Assembly: GCA_016203935.1 (NCBI GenBank)
Contig: JACQLU010000038.1
Span: 1 to 41,714 of the forward strand
DNA: 41,714 bases
Reading direction: 5' to 3'
Origin: Parcubacteria group bacterium
GTDB taxonomy: Bacteria; Patescibacteriota; JACQLU01
The stretch's first letter is position 1. Each line of letters starts with the position of its first letter. Position numbers and translations under genes: made by a program. Below are positions 15,063 through 41,714 of the stretch, piece by piece. Under the pieces are notes generated by a model. That model saw nothing but the letters and a program-made list of their open reading frames with translations. It did no database searches and had not been told where the DNA came from.

Positions 15063-16205
15063 ATGAATCTTCTCTCTTTGCTTCGTGATTTCAAGCGCTC
15101 TTTCTCCTCCTACCGACCGTTGGTAGAGGTTTTGATTTATAGAGAACGGTTGCTTTATAACCTTCGCGAGTTCGAAAGGCGGTATCCTAAGCTTGCGATT
15201 GCGCCGGTGCTAAAGAGCAATGCCTACGGACACGGGCTTAGTACGATTGCAAGAATTTTGGATGGAGAAGATCTCCCTTTTTTGATTGTTGATTCTCTGT
15301 TCGAAGCCCGACTACTCCGTCATGAAGGAATCCGCACGCCGATTCTCGTCATTGGCTATACGACAATCGAGAATATACATAGGAGCAACCTACGCAATAT
15401 TGCTTTTACGATCACGGGATTTACACAACTCGAAGCTGTCGCCGATTCGCTGCCGCGTCCCACGATGTTTCATCTTAAGATCGATACTGGCATGCATCGG
15501 CAGGGAATTATGCCGAGTGAGGTTACGCAAGCAGTGCACCTTCTTAAACAGAACCGCCAGCTCAAACTTGAAGGAGTATTCTCGCACTTTGCCGATGCTG
15601 ATAGTCCCGATTCCGCGTTTACCCTCAAGCAGATTGAGCGATGGCACGAAATGGTCTCTTTATTCAAGAAGGAATTCTCCACGATACGTTATTACCATCT
15701 TTCGGCGACCGCCGGCATGCGCTACGCCGATCGGATCGAGGCGAATATGGCACGGATCGGGAGAGGGCTCTACGGCATCGATCCTGTTGGTACCTCGGAC
15801 TTCGAACTACAGCCGGTCTTAGAGATGAAGACAATCGTCAGCGCAGTAAAGGAATTGGCGGCTCGCGATTATGTCGGCTATGGTCTTACGTTTCGGGCAG
15901 AGAAGCCTATGAAGATCGCGGTGGTATCGGTAGGATACTTTGAAGGAGTGGACCGTCGACTTTCCAATCGCGGCGTTTTTAAAATTCACGACCAGTTTTG
16001 CCCCATTGTGGGGCGGGTGAGTATGAATATCACCACAGTTAATGTCTCTTCGCTACCGGATGTCAAAGAAGGGGACGAAGTGACAGTGATTAGTAAAGAG
16101 CGCGAGGATCCCAACTCAATTGAGAGTATTGCAAAAATTTGTGATACCATCCCCCACGAAATCCTCGTCCATATTCCCCAGCATCTTCGGCGTACGGTTG
16201 TCTGA
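15063..16205 (+). CDS. alr: Alanine racemase
   Basis: PVLKSNAYGHGLSTIARIL (PLP lysine motif), HLKIDTGMHRQGI, ARIGRGLYGIDP, VGRVSMNITTVNV. Confidence 0.93.
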   Translation: MNLLSLLRDFKRSFSSYRPLVEVLIYRERLLYNLREFERRYPKLAIAPVLKSNAYGHGLSTIARILDGEDLPFLIVDSLFEARLLRHEGIRTPILVIGYTTIENIHRSNLRNIAFTITGFTQLEAVADSLPRPTMFHLKIDTGMHRQGIMPSEVTQAVHLLKQNRQLKLEGVFSHFADADSPDSAFTLKQIERWHEMVSLFKKEFSTIRYYHLSATAGMRYADRIEANMARIGRGLYGIDPVGTSDFELQPVLEMKTIVSAVKELAARDYVGYGLTFRAEKPMKIAVVSVGYFEGVDRRLSNRGVFKIHDQFCPIVGRVSMNITTVNVSSLPDVKEGDEVTVISKEREDPNSIESIAKICDTIPHEILVHIPQHLRRTVV

Positions 16206-16228
16206 AATTTGATAGTGTTGATGTCATC

Positions 16229-16260
16229 GCGCATAATTCCGCCATGGCGGAATTATGCGC
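16229..16260. repeat. 32-bp perfect palindrome
   Basis: gcgcataattccgcca|tggcggaattatgcgc. Confidence 0.95.
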
Positions 16261-16300
16261 TGCTTAAATTCTCTTGATAGAGGAGAAGTCTATTTAAGCA
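16261..16300. repeat. Second hairpin adjacent to the palindrome
   Basis: tgcttaaat...atttaagca 9-bp stem with an inner ttctc/gagaa stem. Confidence 0.75.
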
Positions 16301-16375
16301 ATGCAACGGGGGAGAATGCGATCATTCTTTCCTTTTTAGTATGGATATGCTAAGAATGCCGCGAGGAGGGTAATC

Positions 16376-17059
16376 ATGGAACTTCAGAAGTTGATGGAAC
16401 ACTTCTTCCATCTTTATGGACCTAGAAATCGTATCCATCTGCCCGGGTTGCGTGAACGACTAGATTTTCTTAATCTTGGCATCGGGAATCTGGGTGATGC
16501 CATACGTATGGGCATCCAGGGCAAACTGCTGAGGGAGCAACTCGCCAGAGTGGTTGCGCGCATCTTCTGTATTGCCGAACACTTTCGCAATCTTCCCCTA
16601 GTGGAAGTGATGGCGAGAAAATATCCAGCCGCTCATTGCAGTTATTGCCTGCAACTTCCGTGCGTGTGTCCCGAGCGACGGCCAGATCCGCAACTTGCAC
16701 ATACCGTCCATCAAGAACAACTCGCATGGAGTCTCACCGCGTGGTCACATCATTGTGCTATTCTCTATGGAGAGAAAAACAGAGCGCGGGGGATTAACTA
16801 TGTCTTAAACCGGCTTTTCAAAGAAGTGTGTGAATTGCTAAGGCTTCTCGTAACCATCCCTCGGTCAAAGAGTCCGCCAAGTAAAATTGAAGAGGAATTC
16901 GCCCTAGAACTTGCCGATACTCTGGCTTGGACTATTGCGGTGGCGAATTTACTGGAACAGGATTTAGATGCGGCGGTCTGGGAACGGTATGGCAAGGGCT
17001 GTTCGTGGTGTCATAAAAATCCCTGTGTGTGTACCGACCTGTGGGGCAGTATAGGGTAG
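16376..17059 (+). CDS. Tandem MazG-like protein with two Cys-rich knuckles
   Basis: Second half has ExxE...ExxD (KEVCELLR...EFALELADTLAW) plus GKGCSWCHKNPCVC; first half ends in HCSYCLQLPCVC. Confidence 0.6.
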   Translation: MELQKLMEHFFHLYGPRNRIHLPGLRERLDFLNLGIGNLGDAIRMGIQGKLLREQLARVVARIFCIAEHFRNLPLVEVMARKYPAAHCSYCLQLPCVCPERRPDPQLAHTVHQEQLAWSLTAWSHHCAILYGEKNRARGINYVLNRLFKEVCELLRLLVTIPRSKSPPSKIEEEFALELADTLAWTIAVANLLEQDLDAAVWERYGKGCSWCHKNPCVCTDLWGSIG

Positions 17060-17241
17060 TTGCATCTATGAGACGTCGCAAGGGTACGGATCGGAATCTC
17101 CGAGAACCGGCCCTTTTCTTTGTAGAGAAGACTAGTGGGTCGCAACTTCTTCAATTTTCTCAAGCGAAGCCTTCCGCAGTGAATCTCTGGTTTTCACGAA
17201 GCCCCCCACCGGGAGCTTCTTTATATCGGCGAGAGTGGAGA

Positions 17242-17272
17242 TTGTCCCTACTTTAGGGATAGGGGGTATAAT
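17242..17272 (+). promoter_or_regulatory. Promoter TTGTCC-N19-TATAAT with inverted repeat in the spacer region
   Basis: TCCCTA-CTT-TAGGGA at 17245-17259; TATAAT at 17267-17272. Confidence 0.4.
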
Positions 17273-17296
17273 GGAATCGTTCAGTACATTCCATTT

Positions 17297-17464
17297 ATGT
17301 CTTCGAAAGCAATCATTTGGATTGGAGTTATTGTGGGGTCCTACCTCGGCGGTTTCCTACCAACCCTATGGGGCACTACCGCCTTTTCATTTGCGACTCT
17401 CATCGGGAACGCCATTGGAGGACTTCTGGGCTTGTGGGTAGCGTATAAAGTAGTAAATTATTAG
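17297..17464 (+). CDS. Small membrane protein (55 aa)
   Basis: MSSKAIIWIGVIVGSYLGGFLPTLWGTTAFSFATLIGNAIGGLLGLWVAYKVVNY*; not in the ORF track because it is short. Confidence 0.65.
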   Translation: MSSKAIIWIGVIVGSYLGGFLPTLWGTTAFSFATLIGNAIGGLLGLWVAYKVVNY

Positions 17465-17500
17465 AACCCTTTTAATTTTTCATACGTAAGGAGATGGAAT

Positions 17501-17755
17501 ATGGCACCGTCACGTAAGAAAAAACAAGAGACCTTCACCATCAAAGGCGAGGAGCTTTTGGCCAAGGTAAAAGCGCTCATCAAAGAGGGGAATGTACGAA
17601 GGATCAGTATCAAAACCAAACAAGGCAAAGTGATTGCCGAGTTTCCGCTTACGATCGGCGTGGTTGGCGTCGTGCTCGCCCCGATCTTCGCCGCGGTTGG
17701 GGCACTTGCCGCCCTTATCACCGAGTGCACGATCACCGTGGAGCGGGAAGAATAG
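17501..17755 (+). CDS. DUF4342 domain protein
   Basis: GEELLAKVKALIKEGNVRRISIKTKQGKVIAEFPLTIGVVGVVLAPIFAAVGALAALITECTITVER matches the DUF4342 pattern. Confidence 0.8.
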   Translation: MAPSRKKKQETFTIKGEELLAKVKALIKEGNVRRISIKTKQGKVIAEFPLTIGVVGVVLAPIFAAVGALAALITECTITVEREE

Positions 17756-17757
17756 AA

Positions 17758-17786
17758 AGGGGGTCTCGCACAGAGCGAAACCCCTG
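17758..17786. terminator. Bidirectional terminator-like hairpin between convergent genes
   Basis: ggggtctcgc...gcgaaacccc between the stops at 17755 (+) and 17794 (-). Confidence 0.45.
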
Positions 17787-17793
17787 ACGGACA

Positions 17794-18213
17794 CTACCGC
17801 GGCTGGTCATTCTGCCACTTATCGGCGAAGAAACGAGTCGCAATTGCCGCCGCCCGGAGAAAGGCAAAGAGATCATCGATTACCTCTCCTTCCGGGGGTT
17901 CAATTCCATCCGCTCGCAGAGCGGCTTTTAGCCGCTCTATCCCAAGATGGCAATTATTGACAGCCCCAGCAAGAGCGACAAAAACTCCATCAGCACATGC
18001 CTGGATCCCTCCCCCAAGTTTCCCGGTTCGCGATTTACATTTCGTCATCGCCGCTCCATGGGCCCAGTCAACAACGCGTGGGATCAACTCGAGCCTGACA
18101 TGCGGCGTCATGGCGTTGACCATGCGTAACGTGGTAGTGCGATCAAACCCCCTCCACATAATATGGTCAACCGCGACCCAATACGGATTTTTCGTGCCTG
18201 CTTTAGTAATCAT
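17794..18213 (-). CDS. Hypothetical protein
   Basis: Start MITKAG at 18213 is preceded on the minus strand by aaggagggaga RBS (track start 18288). Confidence 0.65.
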   Translation of the reverse strand: MITKAGTKNPYWVAVDHIMWRGFDRTTTLRMVNAMTPHVRLELIPRVVDWAHGAAMTKCKSRTGKLGGGIQACADGVFVALAGAVNNCHLGIERLKAALRADGIEPPEGEVIDDLFAFLRAAAIATRFFADKWQNDQPR

Positions 18214-18281
18214 TCTCCCTCCTTCTGCTGGCTCCCATAACAACCGAGGATAGCACAGAAGGAAGCGAGAGACAACTCTTT

Positions 18282-18310
18282 TTGACAAGCAGTATTAAAA
18301 ATAATATCCT
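18282..18310 (+). promoter_or_regulatory. Promoter TTGACA-N17-TATCCT
   Basis: TTGACA 18282-18287, TATCCT 18305-18310; upstream of aaggagggg RBS and ATG 18341. Confidence 0.6.
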
Positions 18311-18340
18311 ACGCTTAATCTCAACGTAAGGAGGGGAATC

Positions 18341-19345
18341 ATGGCAGAGGAAAGGATGTTCTATGCGGATCTCCGCGGACATTTTAGTCCGCCGAGAGAG
18401 CCACTCAAGGTAAATGCCGGTCTAAAGCTTGACTTGGCCGCAATTTGTCTCGTGCCGCCAGAAGTTACCACCATCGAGGAGATCATTAAGGCCCAGCACG
18501 AGGGTCTTAAGGAGCTCCATGGGCAAAAAAATCTGAGGTTAATCCGGTATCCCTCTGATCTCGATAGCATTGGCAACGGGGTTACGGGGGTAGTGTGCGA
18601 ACTTGAGAATCCACCCAAGGATCTCAATATCGGCGAAGAGAACTCAGAGAGGGATAACATCAAAACGAACCTGCAACGTTTGCGTGATGCTGGTATTCTG
18701 ATCATCGCGCTCGCGTATCGGGAACTCAATGCCTTCGGAGGGGGTTATCGTTATCCGTACGCTCGCCTGACCCCGTGGGGTGACCAATTCCTTTCTGTGT
18801 GCAGGCAGGTGGGCATGATCGTTGATCTTTCTGGTGCCGGGCACCAGACCGCTTGGGACGCATTGATTCATCCAACCGGCGTCACATTCATCGCCTCCCA
18901 CGGCGCATGTTACGAGGTGAATGGATGTTACAATCCCCGCAATCTTCCCCGCGCGGTCCTTAGGAAGATTGCGATGGGGGGAGGGATGGTTGGAATCTAC
19001 ACTCGTACCTTTGGTCTTCATCCTTCGCAAGACCTTCTCGCTCACTTTTGTCATCACGTTGAAGCCGCGGTAGAGAGTTGTGGAGTTGATGCGGTGGCCA
19101 TTGGGAGTGATGGGGTATATGTGAAACAAGCGGAGAGCGTCTTGAGGCTAGAGCGTAGCGATCCGGATCGTTGTCCACCGGATCAACTGGGCGATCTCAA
19201 TCGACCCGACCGGATGGAGGTGCTGCGGGAGGAACTATCGAGAAACGATAGAGGAGAGGCACTCGTCTTCTCTCCCGAGGATGTTGCCAAGATTATGGGT
19301 CTTAACATTTTGCGTTTCCTCAAAAGGGCACTGAAGTCCACCTAA
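18341..19345 (+). CDS. Membrane dipeptidase (peptidase M19)-like protein
   Basis: VDLSGAGHQTAWDAL...FIASHGACYEVNGCYNPRNLPRAVLRKIAMGGGMVGI...VDAVAIGSDG is the M19 layout. Confidence 0.75.
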   Translation: MAEERMFYADLRGHFSPPREPLKVNAGLKLDLAAICLVPPEVTTIEEIIKAQHEGLKELHGQKNLRLIRYPSDLDSIGNGVTGVVCELENPPKDLNIGEENSERDNIKTNLQRLRDAGILIIALAYRELNAFGGGYRYPYARLTPWGDQFLSVCRQVGMIVDLSGAGHQTAWDALIHPTGVTFIASHGACYEVNGCYNPRNLPRAVLRKIAMGGGMVGIYTRTFGLHPSQDLLAHFCHHVEAAVESCGVDAVAIGSDGVYVKQAESVLRLERSDPDRCPPDQLGDLNRPDRMEVLREELSRNDRGEALVFSPEDVAKIMGLNILRFLKRALKST

Positions 19346-19360
19346 GGAACACCCGCGCCA

Positions 19361-19390
19361 AAGCTCCCTTTCCGGGAGCTTCTTTAAATT
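19361..19390 (+). terminator. Rho-independent terminator
   Basis: aagctccc-tttcc-gggagctt followed by ctttaaattt. Confidence 0.65.
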
Positions 19391-19533
19391 TAGAGCGGGG
19401 TCTGACCACGCTTTAGCATACTCCGGTCGTAAGGATCCTCGCGCGGCTCACGCGGCAGGGTCTTCTTTTTGTGCCCATGCTATACTGAAAAGTACCGGGA
19501 ACTCACTCCCGATGGCTTATCTATATTTTCTTT

Positions 19534-21780
19534 ATGCAATTTCCCACTGGTAGAGAACGAACCTCCTTCATTCTATTAATAGCAGCGTTTTTTCTCCTCG
19601 CTGTTATGCTTATTATTGTAAGCGGGAAAGGAAGAGAGCTCCTCACCGCCATAAGCGGCACTCAAGCCGTGGTCTCGTGTAGCAGCGACGTTACCTGCGA
19701 TGACGGTTATGCGCTGACCACTGATAGCTGTGTCAATCCCGGTCTTGAGACTTCTTACTGCGCCCACACCGCCAATCGAGGGTTAAGCTACAGTTCCGGC
19801 TTTTCCTATAGTAATCTGTCGGAATGGAACGAGTCCCAACTAATTGATTTTAGCAACATTATTGAAGGGCCGATCAACTTTGCCGACATAGCCCAAAGCG
19901 ACTTCTTTCAGAGTCTCAAAAACCAAGGCAAGATCATGGCGCGCGCGGTGAGCGTGGAGGAGTACTACGGACGCACCAACGACGATATTGCGGCGAATAA
20001 AACCCAGATCATCCAAGCTATTTACGATAAATTGACTCGAATCTACCAGGACGGCTACGACGCCTTTGCCTTCGATGAATTGATCGGCTTTGAGCAGAAC
20101 GATGGCTTTCGAGAACTGATGTCGGCAGCCTCGCTCGCCATCGAGCAGGTGAAGAAAGATTATCCCACCAAGCTTATCTTTGTGTGGGGCTCGCGTTTTA
20201 TCCCTACCTCGGCGATCGGTATCGAGACTATGAAGCGGATCTTTACCTATGCCGATTTCTATCTTCCCGAAGCGTATTATGCGGATGAGCCGTATACCGA
20301 TACAGAGCTTAATGGTTTCATTCATGACGTGAGCCAGCGCTTTGAAAACTTCCATCCCGGCGTGGGACGCAAGATTCTCTTTGGATTAGCGGCTTCGGAT
20401 GTGGAAGATTGGGTGACCGATCAAAACGCCGATCAGGATTTTAGGAAGTTTGCCGACAACGAAGTCTACCTTATCAAGCAAGACGCCACCCAGAATCTCA
20501 ATACCGGTGTCGGCGTCTTCTTCTTTGGCAAAGTCAACCTTGAGACCAAGACGTGGTTTGCTAAACTCTTTAAGCATTACCTCTTTGATAATCAGACATC
20601 GCGTTTTAGTGAACGGAATTATGCACTTTCGTATCTTAAGAATCCCAGTTTTGAGAATGGCACTGCGGATTGGGCAGTAAGCGTGGGGGCAGGTGGCGAG
20701 GTAAAAACCATTACCAAAGCTTCCATTACCCCTGTGCTTGAGATTGTAAGTCCGTGGCAAAAGGTCCCCAGCAAAAATAATGTGCTTTTCCTAAAGCGCG
20801 GCACCACTGCGAATACGGTAACGCAGACGACCGCAAATCTTGTGGCGGGTAAAGAATACATGCTCGAAGTCTATTCCAAAAAGCATTCGGATGATTTCAC
20901 TCGTTCAAATCTGATTACCAGTCTTACTGATTCGGCTGGTAATACCATAAGCGCCGCCTACGAACGCCATACCCTCTTTACCAATCTTAGAGTATTTAGT
21001 TACGACTATACCTTGGCGCAATGCCAGGCGCTAAAACCTAACTGTAGTTACGATAAACATTACTGGACACGCGAGACGTTCGTCTTTACCGCGCCAGCAA
21101 ATCAAGTGCAGGTAGTGACGACTGATGCGAGTGCAGGGAGCGGAGAGATCACGTTGGTTGATTTTGTACAACTACAGGAATACGTGCGTGCCCTTGTCAT
21201 AACTCCCACTCCTACGCCGACACCTACTTCACCCACGCCAACCCCGACGTCGAGTCCGACTCCTACGCCCACCACGACACTCATCGCGAAAGGCGACACT
21301 TGGAAGTATCTCGATAACGGCACCGATCAGAGAACGGCGTGGTGGGGTGTGACCTTTAACGACGCCGGATGGAAGTCAGGGCCTGCACAACTCGGCTATG
21401 GCGATGGCGACGAGCAAACAGTGGTAAGCTTTGGTCCCAATTCGAAAAGAAAATACATCACCACCTATTTTAGGAGAACCTTCGCTGTGCTCGATCCTGC
21501 AAGTTTCTCTAAGCTTGCCCTCAGTCTCTTGCGCGACGATGGAGCGGTGGTGTATCTCAATGGCGTCGAAGTGATGCGAAGCAATATGCCCACCGGTACC
21601 ATTACGTACACTACACTTGCCGCGAGTACGATTGATGGTTCCAAGGAAACGCTCTTTCACTCAGCCGAGCTCAACCTAGGGTTGTTGGTAAGTGGGGCAA
21701 ACGTGGTAGCAGTGGAAATCCACCAGCGCCAGAAAACAAGCAGTGATATCAGTTTTGATCTGGAACTCGTTGCGTTTTAA
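19534..21780 (+). CDS. Large exported protein: N-terminal anchor, possible TIM-barrel hydrolase-like region, (TP)n linker, C-terminal beta-sandwich-like domain
   Basis: 748 aa; N-terminal TM; linker TPTPTPTSPTPTPTSSPTPTPTTT; C-terminal WKYLDNGTDQ...WKSGPAQLGYGDGDE...VVYLNGVEVMRSNMP module seen in secreted bacterial proteins. Confidence 0.65.
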   Translation: MQFPTGRERTSFILLIAAFFLLAVMLIIVSGKGRELLTAISGTQAVVSCSSDVTCDDGYALTTDSCVNPGLETSYCAHTANRGLSYSSGFSYSNLSEWNESQLIDFSNIIEGPINFADIAQSDFFQSLKNQGKIMARAVSVEEYYGRTNDDIAANKTQIIQAIYDKLTRIYQDGYDAFAFDELIGFEQNDGFRELMSAASLAIEQVKKDYPTKLIFVWGSRFIPTSAIGIETMKRIFTYADFYLPEAYYADEPYTDTELNGFIHDVSQRFENFHPGVGRKILFGLAASDVEDWVTDQNADQDFRKFADNEVYLIKQDATQNLNTGVGVFFFGKVNLETKTWFAKLFKHYLFDNQTSRFSERNYALSYLKNPSFENGTADWAVSVGAGGEVKTITKASITPVLEIVSPWQKVPSKNNVLFLKRGTTANTVTQTTANLVAGKEYMLEVYSKKHSDDFTRSNLITSLTDSAGNTISAAYERHTLFTNLRVFSYDYTLAQCQALKPNCSYDKHYWTRETFVFTAPANQVQVVTTDASAGSGEITLVDFVQLQEYVRALVITPTPTPTPTSPTPTPTSSPTPTPTTTLIAKGDTWKYLDNGTDQRTAWWGVTFNDAGWKSGPAQLGYGDGDEQTVVSFGPNSKRKYITTYFRRTFAVLDPASFSKLALSLLRDDGAVVYLNGVEVMRSNMPTGTITYTTLAASTIDGSKETLFHSAELNLGLLVSGANVVAVEIHQRQKTSSDISFDLELVAF

Positions 21781-21809
21781 GCGGCCCCCTCCCCGCTACC
21801 TCCGGTGCA

Positions 21810-21995
21810 AGCAGCATAAAAATAATATCCTACGCTTAATGTCTTTGCATTCTTCAAAAGGGCACTGAAGTCCACCTAAGGAACGCATGCGTCGAAGCTC
21901 CCTTCCCCGGGAGCTTCTTTAAATTTAGAGCGGGGCGTGACTACGCTTTAACATACTCCGGTCGCAAGGATCCTCGCGCGGCAGGGTCTTCTTTT
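21810..21995 (+). pseudogene. Internally deleted remnant of the M19 gene locus (promoter fused to 3' end and terminator)
   Basis: caagcag..aaaaataatatcctacgcttaat matches 18286-18320; tcaaaagggcactgaagtccacctaaggaac...gggagcttctttaaatttagagcgggg matches 19320-19480. Confidence 0.85.
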
Positions 21996-22065
21996 TTGCG
22001 CAGGTTTGTTATAGGTGTGCAGTTATTCTAGAATGAAATTACACACTCGCGATTAACTTTTTCCT

Positions 22066-26430: not shown

Positions 26431-29163
26431 TTAGAGCGGGGTGAACTTAAACCAATCAATATATTCGTACCGATCGATATTGGGTGTGGCGCGTCCTCCG
26501 AAACCGGTGCCGTCCGTCCCCCACAGACTAAAGAGATAGGGAGCCGCGGTTCTTGGCGGATAATCTCGGTGCGATGCCTGTAAGACTCCGTCGACGTAAT
26601 AATCGACTCGATCGGCAAGCCAGACCATTTTATAGTTCTTAAAACCGGTCGACATGCCGGCAAAATTCCAGATCGAAGTATGCTGGCGGCGATCTGGGTT
26701 GACATAATAATTCCATGTCGTAAGTTCGAGCCGCTCGGGGAATTGCCCTTCCACCTCAAAATCGAGTTCAGTTTCCGAGCCGGTCGCGTAATTAAACGCC
26801 GCCGAGACGCTTCCCGAGGGGTTGCAGATGGCTGGCGTTGGTGAACAAGAACCATTGAATGTAGAGGAAGTGGAAGCCATTCGCATTCTAAATTCGTAAG
26901 TGCCGTAGCCAAATCTCGAGGTGGTCGCAACCTCACCGCCTCTTGAAATGACACCTTGCTGTCCCGCAACGGTGACCCCCGGTGTTTGGGTCAAACGAAT
27001 CTTAAGATAGCCGTTCTCAACGGTCACCCTATCAGGCTGCATATAACCATCATGAATAGATGAGGTGCTTAAACCAACCTTAAAGTTTGACTTCGTCCAT
27101 TTACTCGTATCGAAGGTATCGAAATTATCGCAGAGACCTCCCAGTGGTGTCGTACAACTGCTGGTCAAAAGCGGCGACGTGGTGGGGGAAGGTGTGGGAG
27201 TTGGTGAAGGAGTAGGAGTGGAAGCAGGAGCGAGCGCCCACGAGACCTGTGCTACTGCGGCCTCGGTATTTTCATAGTACTGAACTTTAATGCGACGCCT
27301 ACCCGCGGAGACTGCGCGATCGACCGTGTAGGTGGTGGGCGCCTGATCGAACCACTTGTCGAGGATACTCACTCCGTCAAGCCAAACGCGCATCCCATCA
27401 TCGGTCTTCGCGGTGAAACGATACGTCCCGGTTTGCGCAAAGTCCCAATCTCCCTCCCAGCGGACGCTGAAAGTGTCGGCACCCATATTGGCAGCAGGCG
27501 CATTCACATCCCAGTTAAAGTTAAGTGTCGCATCGGTGCGGATGAGCACGAGGTTAGTAAGATCGATATTGTCGTAGTACTGACCCCTAAAGGAATTTAC
27601 AGGGATGCTTGGCGTAGGAGCAGGAGTAGGTGAGGGGGTCGGTGATGGCGTGAGGGTGGGTGTTGCGGTTGGAGTAAGAGTTGGTGTGGGAGTTGGCGAG
27701 GGAGAAGGAGTGGAAGTAGGAGCGAGCACCCACAAGACCTGTGCCACTGCAGCCTCCGTATTTTCATAGTATTCAACTTTTACCCGACGCCTACCCGCGG
27801 AGACTGCGCGATCGACCGTGTAGGTGGTTGGTCCTTGGTCAAACCACTTATCCAAAATGGCGGTTCCATCCAAAAAGATTCTCATCCCATCATCCGTCTT
27901 GGCGGTAAAGCGATACGTCCCGGTTTGCGCAAAGTCCCAATCACCTTCCCAGCGGACGCTGAAGGTATCAGCGGCGATCGCGGGAACGGGTGAACCAAGC
28001 GCCCAATCAAAGTTGATCGCGGGATCGATACGCGTGAGGGCGAGATTGGTAAAATCGCTGTTATCGTAGTATTCGCCCTTAAATGCATTAAGCGGAAGTG
28101 AAGAGGTCAAGTCTTGGAGTGGCGACGGGATTGGTGTCGGAGAGGGACTTACGGACGATGAAAATTTAATCCAATTGAGATTAAAAGAGCTATTCTCGGC
28201 TACGATGCGTACGGTATGAAGACCGGAGCTTAAGGATATTGGGGGCGCTGAGATGGTATTCCATACTTGCCAACCGCCGGTAGTGGGAACGATGAGGGAT
28301 CCAGTTACGCTCGTACCATCCACCTCCATCCGCATAGCAGAAGTACCCCTCGGTTTTCGTGCGATACGAAATTCGGCAAGATACATTCCCGCCGAAGGTA
28401 CATTAATAGAGTAGGTAAGCCACTCGCCGGTCTCGATCCATCCGACGTTATACCTACCGCCCGCGTCGGCGGTCACCTCGATATCGACATCGTCAGATCG
28501 ATATTGACCGCCGCGGTTCCCTTTCGTGGTATCGTGGTAGCTTATTCCCTCGCCGCCGGGGTTGTAATCTTCGGCTTGAATCATACCCGGGATCGCTACC
28601 GCGGATGCTTCTTGAGCATTCCATGCTACTTTGGCGACGGCAGCACCACTCTTTTCATAGTATTCAACTTTGATACCATGGCGGCCTTGCGAAATGGTAG
28701 GAGCAAGTGTGTACGTCGTGGGCGGTTGGTCAATCCATTTATCGAGGATGAGTACACGATCGATCCACACCCGTATCCCATCGTCAGTGGTGATGGTAAC
28801 ACGATACGTGTTGGTCGCCGGAAAATCCCAATTCCCCTCCCAGCGGACGGCAAACGTATCCTGCCCCATCAAGGGACTTGGCGAACCGAGTCCCCAATCG
28901 AAGGTGATCGCCTGATCAATGCGGCTTACGGCGAGATTCGTGAAGTCGCTATTGTCAAAATAATTTCCCCGAAAGGCGTTTAACGGAATTTCAGGGATGG
29001 GAAGGACGACCGAGGAAGAAAGCGGGGACGATTCGTTGCCAATGGAGGTAAGGAGGAATTGTCCGCCACTGGTAAGGAGTATGGTTGCGAGGATAGCAAG
29101 TACACCAAATGTTATTCCTAATACAATCAGCGGCTGTTTGGGAAGTGAAGGGGGAAAAGACAT
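26431..29163 (-). CDS. Exported multidomain protein: three PA14 domains, CBM6-like domain, GH16-like C-terminal domain
   Basis: Three PA14 units (FSVRWEGDWDFAQTGTYRFTAKTDDGMRxxLDG); GMIQAEDYNPGGEGISYHDT CBM6-like; ETELDFEVEG fits the GH16 ExDxE signature. Confidence 0.85.
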   Translation of the reverse strand: MSFPPSLPKQPLIVLGITFGVLAILATILLTSGGQFLLTSIGNESSPLSSSVVLPIPEIPLNAFRGNYFDNSDFTNLAVSRIDQAITFDWGLGSPSPLMGQDTFAVRWEGNWDFPATNTYRVTITTDDGIRVWIDRVLILDKWIDQPPTTYTLAPTISQGRHGIKVEYYEKSGAAVAKVAWNAQEASAVAIPGMIQAEDYNPGGEGISYHDTTKGNRGGQYRSDDVDIEVTADAGGRYNVGWIETGEWLTYSINVPSAGMYLAEFRIARKPRGTSAMRMEVDGTSVTGSLIVPTTGGWQVWNTISAPPISLSSGLHTVRIVAENSSFNLNWIKFSSSVSPSPTPIPSPLQDLTSSLPLNAFKGEYYDNSDFTNLALTRIDPAINFDWALGSPVPAIAADTFSVRWEGDWDFAQTGTYRFTAKTDDGMRIFLDGTAILDKWFDQGPTTYTVDRAVSAGRRRVKVEYYENTEAAVAQVLWVLAPTSTPSPSPTPTPTLTPTATPTLTPSPTPSPTPAPTPSIPVNSFRGQYYDNIDLTNLVLIRTDATLNFNWDVNAPAANMGADTFSVRWEGDWDFAQTGTYRFTAKTDDGMRVWLDGVSILDKWFDQAPTTYTVDRAVSAGRRRIKVQYYENTEAAVAQVSWALAPASTPTPSPTPTPSPTTSPLLTSSCTTPLGGLCDNFDTFDTSKWTKSNFKVGLSTSSIHDGYMQPDRVTVENGYLKIRLTQTPGVTVAGQQGVISRGGEVATTSRFGYGTYEFRMRMASTSSTFNGSCSPTPAICNPSGSVSAAFNYATGSETELDFEVEGQFPERLELTTWNYYVNPDRRQHTSIWNFAGMSTGFKNYKMVWLADRVDYYVDGVLQASHRDYPPRTAAPYLFSLWGTDGTGFGGRATPNIDRYEYIDWFKFTPL

Positions 29164-30507: not shown

Positions 30508-31565
30508 ATATTCTTGACTTTTTCCAAATCCAAAATGGGATCGATCTTGAGGTGATGCGTACCACCTTTCTTTTCTCGCTCGTGATAAGCTATTTCGTCT
30601 ATTACAAGCGAGGTTTTATCCCCGGAGGGCTTATCGTGCCCGGGATCTTGGTACTTCTCCTCGCGACGCCGCTTAAGTTGCTGCTCGTGATAGGAATAAG
30701 CCTTGCGGTAGCTATTACGTATGGGGTGCTGGTAAGGACCCTCGCGCGTGAGCATATTATTCTGCCGGATGAACGACTGCTTATTCTCGTGTTGCTCGCG
30801 CTCTCCTTTGCCTCGCTGGCATCGTGGTTTACTCGAATCGAATGGGAAACTGCCGGGCTTGGCCATCTCACCATGGTAGCGCCGGCACTCATTGCCGAGA
30901 GACTCTCTGAGCGCAACCGGTGGGAGAGCACAAAGGCGTTCCTCGTGGCAGTGGGACTTACCGCAGCATTTCTTTTCTTAGTGCGAATAGTAATCCTGCC
31001 ATATCTTCCTTCTGCGTATGTCTCCTTCATGAACGGGCTCTATAGCTCCTATCATGAAGTTGAGATTATGCCCATAGGGTGGCTCTATTTCTTCTTCGGC
31101 CTTGCCACCTTCATAAGTTATATTCTCTTACGTGTGTTTAAGATAAGGGCGGTGGGGATCCTGGCGAGTGCCTATCTTGGAATGATTGCGAGTGAGCCGC
31201 TTCAGCTTCTCTTTGTGGCAACAGTCGTAGGCCTTGCGGGAATGATGATGGCATTATTTGCTCGCATGCTGATGCTCGCGGGATACCGACGGCTGGTTCT
31301 CACCGCGCTCGTTACTGGAATGGTGTATCCTTTAGTAGAGATGCTTTTTCTTGTGGTGACGCCAAGAAACTTTGTGCCCTTTTTCGGCTTACCTATTGCC
31401 GGAATTATGATCTCTGCGATCGTGGTGAACGAACTTATCCGTCCGCATCGGAGGAAAGTACTTTTAGGAAGCACGGTGATGGGCGGGACGATGGCTCTCG
31501 CCACGCTCGCAATACTCGTGATACGGCATATTCCGGCGTTTGCCGGATTCTCCCTCTTTCGCTAG
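30504..31565 (+). CDS. capC: CapC/PgsC-like membrane protein, apparently with two CapC-like halves
   Basis: YYKRGFIPGGLIVPGILVLLLATPLKLLL...LPDERLLILVLL; second half RAVGILASAYLGMIASEPLQLLF; overlaps capB by 4 nt. Confidence 0.8.
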   Translation: MNILDFFQIQNGIDLEVMRTTFLFSLVISYFVYYKRGFIPGGLIVPGILVLLLATPLKLLLVIGISLAVAITYGVLVRTLAREHIILPDERLLILVLLALSFASLASWFTRIEWETAGLGHLTMVAPALIAERLSERNRWESTKAFLVAVGLTAAFLFLVRIVILPYLPSAYVSFMNGLYSSYHEVEIMPIGWLYFFFGLATFISYILLRVFKIRAVGILASAYLGMIASEPLQLLFVATVVGLAGMMMALFARMLMLAGYRRLVLTALVTGMVYPLVEMLFLVVTPRNFVPFFGLPIAGIMISAIVVNELIRPHRRKVLLGSTVMGGTMALATLAILVIRHIPAFAGFSLFR

Positions 31566-33497: not shown

Positions 33498-34196
33498 ATG
33501 GAAAACTTGAATGGGTCTGCAAAAACCCCGATAGAAAATCAAGAAAAGAATTTGAAGTTGGAACAGCTAAAACAAGAAGTAGAGAGTATCGTTGATAGAA
33601 CAGGAAGACCAATAGATGAAGGTATAAGAGAAACCGTAGTAATGTTTAAGGCACACGGATTGCCTACATCTGATTCTTGCGAGGGTCATGTGGAAAGGGG
33701 TTTGCCCGTTCCTTACGTTGAGGTTGCTGCTCCAAATGAGCCAGAAGAACGGTTTGTCGGCCAGAATAAAATCTTTGCGGAAGTGGCTGAAAAATACAAT
33801 CTTACTATTGAAGAGCTTGCTGCCGCAATGATTGACGAAGCCTACTGGGAAGCCATGAGAGAATGTTCGCAGAACGAAGAAACAGAAGGATACAAAAAAT
33901 GGAGAGAAGAAAACGAAAGATTACGCATCGAGGCTGATAGGCTTTTGGAAGCATTTTATAAGGGGAGAAAGGTGGAGCCAGACGTCAAGTTACAAATTAC
34001 AGAAGGGGTGGGGCATTTTAGGGTCCATAATGGCGGAAAAGATTATCAGCCAATCATTGAAACCACACAGCAATTTTCAGAGGAAGAAAAGAAAATGCGA
34101 TCAAAAAAAGTGAAGAAGTATCGCGCGGAAATGAGTGCGTTTACACAATTTTTGAAGGATACCTATTTTGGTTTTTCGTCCAAGGAGGAAAAATAA
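33498..34196 (+). CDS. Conserved hypothetical protein with LPTSDSCEGH motif
   Basis: Downstream ATG of track ORF 33273-34196; upstream codons run through the palindromic element. Confidence 0.65.
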   Translation: MENLNGSAKTPIENQEKNLKLEQLKQEVESIVDRTGRPIDEGIRETVVMFKAHGLPTSDSCEGHVERGLPVPYVEVAAPNEPEERFVGQNKIFAEVAEKYNLTIEELAAAMIDEAYWEAMRECSQNEETEGYKKWREENERLRIEADRLLEAFYKGRKVEPDVKLQITEGVGHFRVHNGGKDYQPIIETTQQFSEEEKKMRSKKVKKYRAEMSAFTQFLKDTYFGFSSKEEK

Positions 34197-34208
34197 AACA
34201 AATTTTCT

Positions 34209-34304
34209 ATGCAAAGCGGGAATCTCGAGATCGCTCTCTTCGGTGGCGGATGCTTTTGGTGCATCCGGGCAAGTAAACCCCGTTACTTGACCACGGGGCA
34301 TTAA
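34209..34304 (+). pseudogene. Truncated 5' remnant of an msrA gene
   Basis: MQSGNLEIALFGGGCFWCIRASKPRYLTTGH*; IALFGGGCFWC matches the intact MsrA N-terminus at 35999. Confidence 0.8.
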
Positions 34305-34492: not shown

Positions 34493-35989
34493 ATGGAATC
34501 TCAGCAATTAAATCCTGCAACATCCGGCCCACAACATAGCTTGGGAAGAAAACCATTCTTTAAGACGACGGTGGGACAACTGGCATTCGTAGGCATTGTT
34601 TCGCTTATACTACTCATTGCGCGGAATGATGGGCCGGTGCCCAAATTGGAACACGCGCAGGAGAAACGCACGATGTCGTCTCCTGTGGTTGAGAATGTTG
34701 GACGAATCCTTGAGATAGGGAAAGAGTTGCAAGATGATATTATGCCATCGCCATCGTTGCCGTCCGTCCCTCCTCAACATTTCTCGGCAACTCCATTAGC
34801 GAAAAGCACGCCCACCTCAATCCCAAGTGCACCACTTGTAATACGCCAAGAGAGTTTCTCTCAAGATCTAGTGATTCCTGTCGACGAGCTCGTTACCGAT
34901 AGCACATCACCCTTTCAAGCGATTATCCTTGCCCAAAAGAGTGGTTATCACACCGTGGTGGTGCGGAGGTCTATGGTGGAGGGCTATGAGACTATCTTGT
35001 TCGAGTATAATGAGAGGATAGAGGGAGACTTTTCGGCGGGTAACCTCTGGGATGCGCTCCCTCCCAATATTGCATTAGCGCCGAACAAAAATCAGATTGC
35101 CTACATCGATGAGGATGGCCTCAAACTTTTTTCTCTCGTTACTGTGCAGCACATCCCACTAATCACAATCATACAGCCACAACCAGAGAACTCTGATGGA
35201 TCGCCTTTATGGTCAGTCGAAGCATTACATGGTACCTATTTTTTGGTTCGTCCTCGCTGGTCAGCTGACAGTCGCTATATTAGTTTCTCACAAGCGCATT
35301 ACGAAGGGGCCTCGTACGGCATGTATGATACAGTAAGTGGCACATACGATTGGATCCGAGGAAAGGACGATGAGCATATAGGACACATTTCCCTTACATG
35401 GTCTCCCGTGGGTCTCTCTGTACTCGAACCAAGTTCAGAAGGCTATCGTCATCCCGGACTCTTTGTTTCCACAGACAATGTTTGGGAGGTAAAAAATCTC
35501 GCTAAAAAGTTTGGCAAACGCGACGCACAATTCTCCGCGGCCAACTTTTCACCCGACGGCACGAAGATCGCCTTTACCTATCGAGATGTCTACGAAGATA
35601 AGGAGAATATCCTCGCGTTTGTAGATAGCAGCGGCCGCAATTTTAGTATCGTGGATGACAAAGGTTGGAAGGAAACTCCTTTCTTTGCTCCCGACGGCTC
35701 ACATATATATTACGTGGTCACCAAAGAAGGACGTGCAACGTTGGTCGCGTACGAGATTGAATCGAAATCTTCATCAGAGGTCTTGCGCTTCCCAACTGAA
35801 TACGATGTGTGGGAAGAACCACAATGGATAGGAAGTTACCTCGTCCTCCAAGGGAATGCACACGGCGTGGATACTACTCTTCGTGATGATGTCAAGAGAC
35901 TTATCATATTGGATTTAGAAAATCGCATCATGGTCTACGCGAGTCCTGCATACGATTACTATACGACCTTCGCTGGCTTTATCAATTGA
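34493..35989 (+). CDS. Membrane-anchored TolB/WD40-like beta-propeller protein
   Basis: N-terminal TM; repeats RPRWSADSRYISFSQ, FSPDGTKIAFTYRD, FFAPDGSHIYYV. Confidence 0.7.
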   Translation: MESQQLNPATSGPQHSLGRKPFFKTTVGQLAFVGIVSLILLIARNDGPVPKLEHAQEKRTMSSPVVENVGRILEIGKELQDDIMPSPSLPSVPPQHFSATPLAKSTPTSIPSAPLVIRQESFSQDLVIPVDELVTDSTSPFQAIILAQKSGYHTVVVRRSMVEGYETILFEYNERIEGDFSAGNLWDALPPNIALAPNKNQIAYIDEDGLKLFSLVTVQHIPLITIIQPQPENSDGSPLWSVEALHGTYFLVRPRWSADSRYISFSQAHYEGASYGMYDTVSGTYDWIRGKDDEHIGHISLTWSPVGLSVLEPSSEGYRHPGLFVSTDNVWEVKNLAKKFGKRDAQFSAANFSPDGTKIAFTYRDVYEDKENILAFVDSSGRNFSIVDDKGWKETPFFAPDGSHIYYVVTKEGRATLVAYEIESKSSSEVLRFPTEYDVWEEPQWIGSYLVLQGNAHGVDTTLRDDVKRLIILDLENRIMVYASPAYDYYTTFAGFIN

Positions 35990-35998
35990 CACCTTGAT

Positions 35999-36544
35999 AT
36001 GGCGCGCATATCTGAAATCGCTCTCTTCGGTGGTGGATGTTTTTGGTGCACCGAGGCGATTTATAATGAACTTAAGGGAGTTACCTCGGTAACTTCTGGT
36101 TACTCGGGTGGCGCCAAGGCAAATCCGTCGTATGAAGAAGTGAGTAGCGGCACCACTGGGCATGCCGAGGTGATTAAAATCGAGTTTGATCCTTCGGTAA
36201 TTTCATACCGAGATTTGCTCTCGGTCTTCTTCTCTTCGCATGATCCCACCACCATGAATCGTCAAGGAAACGATGTGGGTGAGCAGTATCGGTCGGCGAT
36301 CTTTTATACCTCACCAGAACAGAAGCGCGCCGCCGAAGAGTGTATCGCCGAGCTAGGTAAGGACGGCGTCTTTGAAAAACCGATTGTCACGAAGGTGGAG
36401 CCTTTTAACGCATTCTATCCTGCCGAGAAGTATCACGAGCGCTATTACGAACGAAACAGAACCGCGCCCTATTGCCAGCTCGTGATCAATCCAAAACTAA
36501 AGAAACTTAAAGAGCGGCATGCGGCACTTCTCAAAGAGGTATGA
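35999..36544 (+). CDS. msrA: Peptide methionine sulfoxide reductase A
   Basis: ALFGGGCFWCTEAIYNELKGVTSVTSGYSGG...NPSYEEVSSGTTGHAEVIKIEFDP...AEKYHERYYERN. Confidence 0.96.
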   Translation: MARISEIALFGGGCFWCTEAIYNELKGVTSVTSGYSGGAKANPSYEEVSSGTTGHAEVIKIEFDPSVISYRDLLSVFFSSHDPTTMNRQGNDVGEQYRSAIFYTSPEQKRAAEECIAELGKDGVFEKPIVTKVEPFNAFYPAEKYHERYYERNRTAPYCQLVINPKLKKLKERHAALLKEV

Positions 36545-38965: not shown

Positions 38966-39043
38966 CGGCACATTCGGAATACTTTAGGTAGGTGCTGGAT
39001 TTATTGATTTTAGAGCCATTTTCTGCGATGATGAAAAAAAGAA

Positions 39044-39095
39044 ATCCGCGTCAATCTGCGTATAGATCCGCGCCGATCCGCTTCTATCTCTATCG
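39044..39095. repeat. Decamer-phased degenerate array
   Basis: ATCCGCGTCA ATCTGCGTAT AG ATCCGCGCCG ATCCGCTTCT ATCTCTATCG. Confidence 0.8.
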
Positions 39096-39098
39096 ATG

Positions 39099-39158
39099 AT
39101 GAACCCAGAAAACGTAGTAAAAGGCCGAATCGCCGAGAATGAAAAATGTCATTCCTAA
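39099..39158 (+). pseudogene. Truncated 5' remnant of the PD-(D/E)XK-like gene at 39848
   Basis: MNPENVVKGRIAENEKCHS* versus intact MQLENVVKGRIAETLVNEL. Confidence 0.8.
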
Positions 39159-39173
39159 ACATAATACTCCCCT

Positions 39174-39824
39174 ATGCATTCTAAATTCTTGAGGATCTCT
39201 CTTGGTATAATGATTGTTTCATTAGGTATCCTTGTGACATTGCTTTGGCAGAATCGGGTTAGAAAAGCGCCGAAAGAGGATAATAGAATTTTGAATGTCG
39301 CACAATTTTTAGCAAATCCTAGATTTGACAGAGAGATTCAGTTAATGGGAGAGGTAGGAGCGATCGGTCAACTCCGCTGTCCATGTTTTGAGTTAACATC
39401 GGGAGGTAGGGATATGACAGTTTGGTATGGCGTCCCGGAAGCACCGGCAACCATAGGAGACATTACCAATGGTGGTTCAGTTATTGTGAGGGGACACTTT
39501 CGCATCTCTCCTGCTCAATCAGGGGGAGACTTCTTGGCGTATGCGATCCGTAAACATGAGAGTGCGAAAGAAGCTGTCGCACGTCTTTTTAGTGAGAAGT
39601 ATGGTACGGCAGCAGATGAAGTAAGAGTATCCATTTGGCAGGAGATTCCAAATTATGTCTTTGGAGACGTGGATATTCCGAATGAGTTATATACGCATAC
39701 ATTTCTCGCATCGTATACTGAAGATGAATGGACGATCGTACATGACATCAATGGGGGAATATCCTGTAAGACTAGGTGGGAGCTTGGGTTTCCAGAGCAG
39801 ATTGCTGCCAATTGTGTAGAATAG
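39174..39824 (+). CDS. Membrane-anchored hypothetical protein, OB-fold-like middle region
   Basis: N-terminal TM; REIQLMGEVGAIGQLRCPCFELTSGGRDMTVWYG...SVIVRGHFR; C-terminal DEWTIVHDINGGISC. Confidence 0.65.
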   Translation: MHSKFLRISLGIMIVSLGILVTLLWQNRVRKAPKEDNRILNVAQFLANPRFDREIQLMGEVGAIGQLRCPCFELTSGGRDMTVWYGVPEAPATIGDITNGGSVIVRGHFRISPAQSGGDFLAYAIRKHESAKEAVARLFSEKYGTAADEVRVSIWQEIPNYVFGDVDIPNELYTHTFLASYTEDEWTIVHDINGGISCKTRWELGFPEQIAANCVE

Positions 39825-39847
39825 GATGGAATTTCATTTTTGCCTAT

Positions 39848-40381
39848 ATGCAGCTTGAGAACGTAGTGAAAGGAAGGATTGCCGAGACGCTCGTGAATGA
39901 GCTTCTTCGCCGTGCCAAGTTTCGCGTCTATCGTTTTGGGTACGAGGCGGTACTCCAGAATCTCACACAAATTGAAGAGAACGTGCTAGGAGGATCTGAT
40001 GAGGTGAGTCAACAGATCCGCTCGATCCCGGATTTCCTTATAATCAAAGAAAAGCAGCCATTCTTTGTTGAAGTAAAATTTCTTGCCATTCGCAGGACTA
40101 ACCTTAAGTTTTATACGAAATCAGGAGAGGAACTGGGAGAGCAACTTATAAGAATTAGGGACTTCTGGAAGGCCAAAATAATTATCGTCACCGGCGAACT
40201 CCCTTACTTCAATTTTTTGGAGGATCCTTACTTTAATCCAACGTCGAAGGATCTTTATCTCCAGCCGCTGGAAAAGGAAAGAGATTTAGGAATTACTGAA
40301 GCGATGATAAGAGAATTTAATCGTCTCGTGGAGCAATACTTGAGAGCGACCGTCCTACAAAGTAGTCTTAAAAATCTTTAA
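39848..40381 (+). CDS. PD-(D/E)XK nuclease-like conserved hypothetical protein
   Basis: IPDFLIIKEKQPFFVEVKF fits D-x(n)-ExK; true start probably MQLENVVKGRIAETL at 39848. Confidence 0.65.
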   Translation: MQLENVVKGRIAETLVNELLRRAKFRVYRFGYEAVLQNLTQIEENVLGGSDEVSQQIRSIPDFLIIKEKQPFFVEVKFLAIRRTNLKFYTKSGEELGEQLIRIRDFWKAKIIIVTGELPYFNFLEDPYFNPTSKDLYLQPLEKERDLGITEAMIREFNRLVEQYLRATVLQSSLKNL

Positions 40382-40385
40382 AGCT

Positions 40386-41714
40386 ATGACTACTATTCAG
40401 CAAACGAGGCAATTTGTAACAATTAAAGAAGCGAGTCACTGGGCTAGCCAATTTTTGGGACGCGACATCAGCGAATCAAACATCTCGTATCTGGTTCAAT
40501 ATGGAAAGGTTAAGAAATATAACGGCGGAAATACCGTTCTGATTGATTTGAATGATCTACGAAAATATTATGGATCATATCGTGGACAACGAGAGTTGAG
40601 TTGGAAAAGAAAACTTGGTAAAGATCTAAATTGGGCATTATCTTTTGATCATTTGCGAGAGAAAGACACAACCAAACATGTCCATCGCTTACATCCCTAC
40701 AAGGGCAAGTTTATTCCACAACTTGTTCAGTATTTCATTGACGATCATACGGATGACTTTAAGCAAGATGTTTATTTTAGAGCTGGGGATATTATTCTTG
40801 ATCCGTTTTCCGGCTCTGGCACAACACTCGTGCAAGCACATGAAATGGGTATGCACGCCATCGGCGTTGATATATCGCATTTCAATTGTATGATTACGGA
40901 AACAAAATTACTTCCCTATGATTTTACTTTGCTTGATGACGAGGTAAAAAGGACAAAGCAAGTCATCGCAAGTTATGAAGCAGATAGCAGAATTACAGCT
41001 TTTGAGAGTGAGCTACTGGCACGGATGACTGATTTCAATAATAAGTATTTTCCAAGTCCAGAATTTAAATATAAAGTCCAAAACACGCAGATAGATGAGA
41101 GTAAATATGCGGCGGGAAAAGAAAAAGAATTTCTAATAGTCTACAGTGATCTTGTTGAAAAATACGGCATTGAGCTCAATCATTTTTCCGCCAAAAACTT
41201 TTTGGATAAGTGGTATATCAAAAATGTCCGCAAAGAGATTGATTTTGCATTTGAGCAGATCAGAAAAATCAAAGACATCAAGGATAAAAAGATTCTGGCG
41301 GTAATTTTAAGCCGAACAATTAGATCGTGCCGCGCAACGACACACTCGGATTTAGCCACACTCAAAGAGCCGCAAATAACAACCTACTATTGCTGGAAGC
41401 ACAAGAAAATCTGCAAGCCTCTTTTCTCGATAAAAGCGTGGTTTGATCGTTACGCGATTGATACAGTGTATCGGCTCAAGACCTTCGCAAAATTAAAGAC
41501 AAATTCGCATTATGCCGTTCTTCCGGCAGACTCTAGAACGGTGGATATTTCCAAAGAAGTAGAAAAGAGAAATAAAAAATTCCACGAGATTCTAAAGAAG
41601 CAAAGAATCAATGGTATTTTTACTTCGCCGCCCTATGTCGGCCAAATTGATTATCATGAGCAACACGCTTATGCATATGATCTTTTTGGATTTGAGCGCA
41701 GAGATGAACTTGAG
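40386..41714 (+). CDS. DNA methyltransferase with N-terminal HTH-like region (incomplete, runs off window)
   Basis: MTTIQQTRQFVTIKEASHWASQFLGRDISESNISYLVQYGKVKKYNGG...HRLHPYKGKFIPQLVQYF...ILDPFSGSGTTLVQAHEMGMHAIGVDIS...GIFTSPPYVGQIDYHEQHAYAYDLFGFERRDELE; absent from track because there is no stop. Confidence 0.9.
   Translation, partial: MTTIQQTRQFVTIKEASHWASQFLGRDISESNISYLVQYGKVKKYNGGNTVLIDLNDLRKYYGSYRGQRELSWKRKLGKDLNWALSFDHLREKDTTKHVHRLHPYKGKFIPQLVQYFIDDHTDDFKQDVYFRAGDIILDPFSGSGTTLVQAHEMGMHAIGVDISHFNCMITETKLLPYDFTLLDDEVKRTKQVIASYEADSRITAFESELLARMTDFNNKYFPSPEFKYKVQNTQIDESKYAAGKEKEFLIVYSDLVEKYGIELNHFSAKNFLDKWYIKNVRKEIDFAFEQIRKIKDIKDKKILAVILSRTIRSCRATTHSDLATLKEPQITTYYCWKHKKICKPLFSIKAWFDRYAIDTVYRLKTFAKLKTNSHYAVLPADSRTVDISKEVEKRNKKFHEILKKQRINGIFTSPPYVGQIDYHEQHAYAYDLFGFERRDELE

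Follow-up and report, generated by a model that had tools for sequence, protein, structure and literature searches.

Homology-facilitated illegitimate recombination (HFIR), in which one end of a DNA fragment is joined by homology and the other end is joined illegitimately, is well documented for several competent bacteria as well as for conjugation (PMC3240628). For natural transformation it has been described in Acinetobacter, Streptococcus pneumoniae and Pseudomonas stutzeri (PMC3240628, PMC2884548). It has also been invoked to explain loci that are dimorphic among strains (PMC2884548), and it has been proposed as the origin of effector and Rhs ends found displaced in Vibrio and other bacteria (PMC5361080). 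A second route to duplicated gene segments is insertion with long target duplication, reported by Nobusato et al. (2000) for restriction-modification (R-M) genes of Helicobacter pylori (described in PMC1643837). Our literature search found no paper joining Patescibacteria with illegitimate recombination.

Here we describe a locus in a Patescibacteria genome that resembles the products of these reactions. It lies at the end of the window, by which we mean the whole 41,714-nucleotide stretch of DNA that was analyzed. The locus consists of the truncated start of a nuclease gene, a single unrelated gene and the intact nuclease gene, all in the same orientation and followed by a methyltransferase gene (Table 1). 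Two further loci of related architecture, at msrA and at a dipeptidase gene, are located on the same contig and are included in the table.

Table 1 Coordinates of the three loci on the contig; GC percentiles refer to this genome
Feature	Position	Strand	Remarks
Intact M19 dipeptidase gene	18341..19345	+	Target of the 3'-end case
Gene separating the dipeptidase gene from its 3'-end copy	19606..21780	+	724 aa
Partial copy of the dipeptidase locus	21808..21996	+	Most of the gene body is missing
5' remnant, second msrA allele MQSGNLEIALFGGGCFWC	34209..34270	+	12 nt past the stop of the preceding gene
Inserted gene, msrA locus	34511..35989	+	Anchored PD40/WD40-type beta-propeller; GC 47.8% (9th percentile)
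Intact msrA	35999..36544	+	Starts MARISEIALFGGGCFWC
Dispersed intergenic repeat (aaatccgcgtcaatctgcgtatagatccgcgccgatccgc)	39041..39088	.	Shortly before the remnant; related copies in the genome number about a dozen or more
5' remnant, second PD-(D/E)XK allele	39099..39158	+	13 homologous codons (39099-39137), 6 unrelated codons, stop
Inserted gene ("cargo")	39174..39824	+	216 aa, N-terminal hydrophobic membrane anchor; GC 43.9% (3rd percentile)
Intact PD-(D/E)XK nuclease gene	39848..40381	+	177 aa; E13, P61-D62, E75-x-K77; GC 42.9% (2nd percentile)
Type II-like DNA methyltransferase	40386..41714	+	PDLC03249, 616 bits; runs off the contig; GC 38.6% (0th percentile)

The frame that opens at 39099 translates into 19 aa (MNPENVVKGRIAENEKCHS, then the stop). 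Its 13-codon start, MNPENVVKGRIAE, is homologous to the start of the intact nuclease gene, which reads MQLENVVKGRIAETLV in translation. Counted from the same codon, 10 consecutive residues agree; this block, ENVVKGRIAE, is identical in the remnant and the intact gene, and all nucleotide changes within it are synonymous. When the whole intact gene was searched against the whole genome with tblastn, the remnant match had an E value of 2.6, which corresponds to about 0.002 when scaled to the 0.7 kb in which the remnant is located, before crediting its start at codon 1 and its correct strand. The part retained in the remnant is also the most conserved block of the nuclease family (EN..KGRIAE), and because the match coincides with this block, we regard it as homology and not as chance. 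We also considered whether the palindrome with which the remnant ends, gaatgaaaaatgtcattc, is a relic of a repeat, and rejected this, as it has no close copies elsewhere in the genome. The inserted gene has no Pfam match and no PADLOC match, and the nuclease has no PADLOC match.

These results largely agree with an initial annotation of the window. The remnant, its start codon and the intact gene that it mirrors are as described there, although the stop had been placed five codons too early. The changes within VVKGRIAE are synonymous as reported, the gene between the two copies is indeed single and membrane-anchored, and the second locus that had been noted within 6 kb, at msrA, is real.

The PD-(D/E)XK assignment of the intact gene is based on both sequence and predicted structure. 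Residues E13, P61, D62 and K77 are invariant among 13 aligned sequences of the nuclease family, and the product carries the E...PD...(D/E)xK motif on an alpha-beta core, as judged from these sequences and the predicted core. The fold, predicted with moderate confidence (mean pLDDT 71), is nearest to Hjc resolvases and HincII-type nucleases in the PDB, and the label therefore holds. A search with degenerate peptide/DNA patterns revealed homologs in archaea and a few bacteria. The family is patchy, being present in 6 of 380 same-phylum genomes, and no close relative of the nuclease or its locus was found in 116 relatives. The methyltransferase gene starts 4 nt 3' of the nuclease gene; on the basis of this adjacency and the MTase_II profile, the two genes probably form an R-M pair. 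As both are AT-rich, the piece imported at this locus probably takes in the whole pair.

At msrA, 5-6 kb upstream of the nuclease remnant, the remnant and the intact gene match over 42 nt with 90% identity. The gene directly before the msrA remnant (33498-34196) is a strong AT outlier (1st percentile) and may be imported too. Farther upstream, positions 27191-28988 contain several direct repeats of 140-400 nt with 66-78% identity, apparently a tandem repeat protein or paralogs. The dipeptidase locus differs in that the copied part is a 3' end. Within the partial copy, 21808-21843 matches 18286-18322, a segment before the gene, and 21850-21996 matches 19316-19470, which comprises the 3' end of the gene and its flank. 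Because this copy keeps a piece of the 5' flank and shows no synonymous excess on its own, its sequence is explained equally well by a duplicate that has decayed and by an allele of foreign origin.

To place these loci in the context of the whole genome, we carried out the search for displaced gene starts that had been proposed in the initial annotation and included gene ends of both kinds. The genome comprises 1,000,159 bases in 97 contigs (a draft, 87% complete, with 51.6 kb masked), in which a simple dicodon caller placed 944 genes; tblastn was then run with each protein against the genome. We defined a scrap as a match of at least 55% identity (a cut-off of our own choice) that covers less than half of the gene, has an E value of at most 8, lies at most 4 kb from the parent gene and touches a gene end. 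Eight scraps were found. Three are N-terminal and all lie upstream of the parent gene, five are C-terminal and all lie downstream, and each is on the strand of its gene; in this genome-wide screen, no scrap was found in any other configuration of side and strand. The number of matches in the whole genome predicts 0.25 scraps in these two classes (P ~3e-10). With two abutting scraps on contig C60, which share one junction, counted once, there are seven events (P ~1e-8). The enrichment thus falls on the side and strand predicted for gene starts (three of three), and it extends to a mirror class, 3' ends downstream of their genes (five of five), that had not been foreseen. Loosening the screen to 45-40% identity diluted the signal with tandem paralogs and chance matches.

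The scraps are 12-39 codons long, and most are 70-86% identical to the intact copy. Their targets include the normally single-copy housekeeping genes ychF and fmt and, in a second genome (G005, discussed below), miaA. On contig C2 (789-1395), the cargo is an MNT nucleotidyltransferase with a HepT-like partner, a pair of the toxin-antitoxin type, located next to a ferredoxin gene; a diverged copy of the 3' end of this ferredoxin gene lies at 1400-1505. On contig C60 (28948-32753), a beta-propeller gene and fmt are convergent and each has a 3' scrap; at 31329-31335 the fmt scrap adjoins the beta-propeller-gene scrap across a few shared bases. From their sequence, the abutting scraps have the appearance of the termini of an intergenic segment that was imported, and their contact looks as an illegitimate join would.

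Repeats are frequent between the genes of this genome. The type "atccgcgtnaatctgcgt", which precedes the nuclease remnant, occurs in many other places alongside other palindromic repeat families, and about 12% of intergenic bases have at least two distant copies. We considered dispersed repeats as recombination sites and rejected them: 17.5% of randomly chosen intergenic positions are no farther than 15 nt from one, and repeats are no commoner at remnant borders than chance. Two of the start-type scraps have a repeat at their end and one follows a repeat; none of the end-type scraps borders on a repeat.

The differences between the scraps and their intact counterparts indicate that the two copies are separate alleles. 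When nine remnant/intact pairs are pooled, 64 of the differences are synonymous and 48 non-synonymous, with a pN/pS of 0.22, compared with about 0.55 expected for a freely decaying scrap. The share of synonymous differences is 0.57. Under a model in which a duplicate from the same genome drifts freely and the intact copy is constrained, the expected share is about 0.35, or 0.44 when conditioned on detectable amino-acid identity, and even under that condition the observed value was reached in 0 of 4000 simulations. The excess is carried by ferredoxin, fmt, ychF, miaA, msrA and the nuclease of the window; individually, the dehydrogenase on contig C2 (2 synonymous, 2 not) and the dipeptidase (3 and 5) do not show it.

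The inserted DNA appears foreign to the recipient, as judged from its base composition and from an empty site. Among the nine cargo genes, seven rank no higher than the 9th GC percentile, and most target genes are ordinary in this respect. The empty site comes from one locus, ychF-rpsF. In several relatives from different families (L174, L175, L178 and L188), rpsF follows ychF after about 70-140 nt with no gene between them. In the genome analyzed here, the order is ychF, a cargo gene of 267 aa, the ychF 3' remnant and then rpsF, 149 nt after the remnant. The remnant therefore occupies the place expected for the end of the resident ychF. The earlier suggestion that a foreign allele carrying cargo had been recombined into the genome is thus supported by the directional enrichment, the synonymous excess, the AT-rich cargo and the empty site.

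The second genome, G005, belongs to the same phylum and is gap-free, consisting of one contig of 785,860 bases. It contains one clear case in 0.79 Mb: a miaA start is located 1 kb upstream of the intact miaA, and the two are separated by a 192-aa gene that is read from the opposite strand. G027, a congener of G005, has a single miaA match. The miaA scrap is diverged over about 70 nt, whereas its last ~25 nt are nearly identical to the intact gene, a jump in identity that is compatible with a nearby crossover. A short stretch appears to be duplicated at miaA, unlike in simple one-strand HFIR, and this points to the sister-chromosome or single-crossover variants that have been discussed for transformation-induced merodiploids (PMC3784515). 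Elsewhere in G005 (15919-21365), beside a serine-recombinase-like gene, an inverted fragment of that gene (17759-17896) adjoins an inverted copy of the start of another gene (17891-17938); from its sequence, this arrangement may be an inversion with duplication.

We consider it likely that the nuclease locus is an import scar, in which one end recombined homologously within the target gene and the other was joined illegitimately. In this reading, a foreign fragment that bears a neighboring gene together with another allele of the target gene would enter the cell and pair with the resident gene, where homologous recombination would take place at one end. The unmatched other end of the fragment would then be joined illegitimately near the end of the resident gene. 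The product would be the end of the resident gene (the remnant), the foreign gene and a hybrid intact gene, or the mirror image of this order if the anchor lay toward the 5' side. At the nuclease locus, the remnant would represent the first 13 codons of the resident nuclease gene, and the import would comprise 39174-39824 together with the nuclease-methyltransferase pair. Of the accounts that yield the direction rule, the two alleles, the foreign cargo and an unharmed target gene, one-sided recombination is the simplest. HFIR would be the joining reaction. As to the route of entry, laboratory experiments have demonstrated competence in a few Saccharibacteria. In the genome analyzed here, a profile search identified a ComEC domain (PF03772) on contig C97 (5511-6317, 4.5e-52). 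Patescibacteria are known to undergo natural transformation with linear DNA (PMC10633639), and this is probably the entry route here.

The same pattern could in principle arise during assembly, if two strains were present in the sample and the end of one strain's allele was placed beside the cargo of the other. The genome is a draft of 97 contigs, and mixed alleles would yield the same orientation rule and synonymous differences. However, the gap-free 786-kb contig of G005 shows the same architecture at miaA, which argues that an artifact is not the whole story. The identities of most scraps are also far lower than is usual for strain mixing within a draft, and the contigs have no internal N gaps, the runs of N being whole masked small contigs. 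Moreover, there is no direct join after the msrA scrap; 270 nt of intergenic sequence containing dispersed repeats come next. We therefore regard an assembly origin as unlikely.

An origin within the same genome, by insertion with long target duplication or by tandem duplication and partial loss, would have produced identical copies of which one decayed. It predicts the same geometry of remnant, insert and intact gene, and the probable R-M pair belongs to the gene class for which long target duplication has been reported (PMC1643837). Some pairs are 94-99% identical (C2:3651 and C60:29890) and individually compatible with such an origin, and the 5' flank retained in the dipeptidase copy resembles a decayed duplicate of a whole locus. 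As a general explanation, we judge it quite unlikely. A copy that decays freely cannot account for the pooled synonymous excess. In addition, the msrA starts are unlike in N-terminal sequence and length (MQSGNLEI and MARISEI), and no scraps lie on the wrong side of their genes, although loss of the outer side would have given some.

Some integrated elements bring their own copy of a gene end, as prophage e14 does in icd. An integrase that targets gene ends, with the element later reduced to one gene, would leave the same remnant geometry with synonymous differences. This reading is very improbable for the loci described here, as the cargos examined contain no recombinase, the only two tyrosine integrases found in the genome (contigs C71 and C75) are away from all cases, and targets and borders differ from case to case with no common core sequence. 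Finally, the 19-codon frame has its own start codon and might be functional, for example as a leader peptide controlling the cargo or the nuclease gene, but among the other scraps are 3' ends that lack a start codon and stretches that are out of frame, which makes a shared function unlikely and leaves this idea with hardly any credibility.

The reading as a scar of one-sided import has consequences beyond the individual loci. Tentatively, and with considerable doubt, we suggest that the scraps trace a frequent and possibly favored mode of gene gain in Patescibacteria, in which DNA from relatives would be taken up repeatedly and one-sided allele exchange would place single new genes at housekeeping gene ends. 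If this were true, competence, and not mobile elements, would supply much of the accessory gene content of Patescibacteria. If the scraps are reliable scars of one-sided import, imports could be counted in single genomes without a reference, and cargo could be recognized without strain comparison. The cargo types found here are AT-rich anchored proteins, the MNT-HepT toxin-antitoxin pair and the probable R-M pair. These considerations bear on the natural acquisition of genes by bacteria with very small genomes.

The initial annotation had called the route possibly undescribed, which is not supported: HFIR and the scraps that it leaves have been reported before (PMC3240628, PMC2884548, PMC5361080), as has insertion with long duplication (PMC1643837). 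The proposed mechanism is known; what is new is the recurrence of such scraps at housekeeping genes of a Patescibacteria genome, at an unusual density. Long target duplication (PMC1643837) and our loci have in common a gene insert with a direct copy of part of the target on either side and, probably, the involvement of R-M genes; that model, however, copies resident sequence, whereas the copies seen here differ mostly by synonymous changes and resemble two alleles. Transformation-induced merodiploidy by alternative pairing (PMC3784515) likewise places a partial duplication next to an integrated fragment, but its duplications span 100-900 kb and are tied to long repeats. The displacement scars of T6SS effector-immunity modules in Vibrio and of Rhs/CDI 3' ends (PMC5361080) are similar in that a module is anchored in the conserved part of a gene and the old end is displaced and left behind; they arise at polymorphic toxin loci, where replacement is selected for, in contrast to the unrelated and mostly single-copy genes described here. 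HFIR would share with our loci one end joined by homology, the other joined illegitimately, and foreign sequence beside the anchor gene. It is known from laboratory crosses and has been inferred from strain comparison, whereas here it would be read from the scars in one genome, mostly at housekeeping genes.
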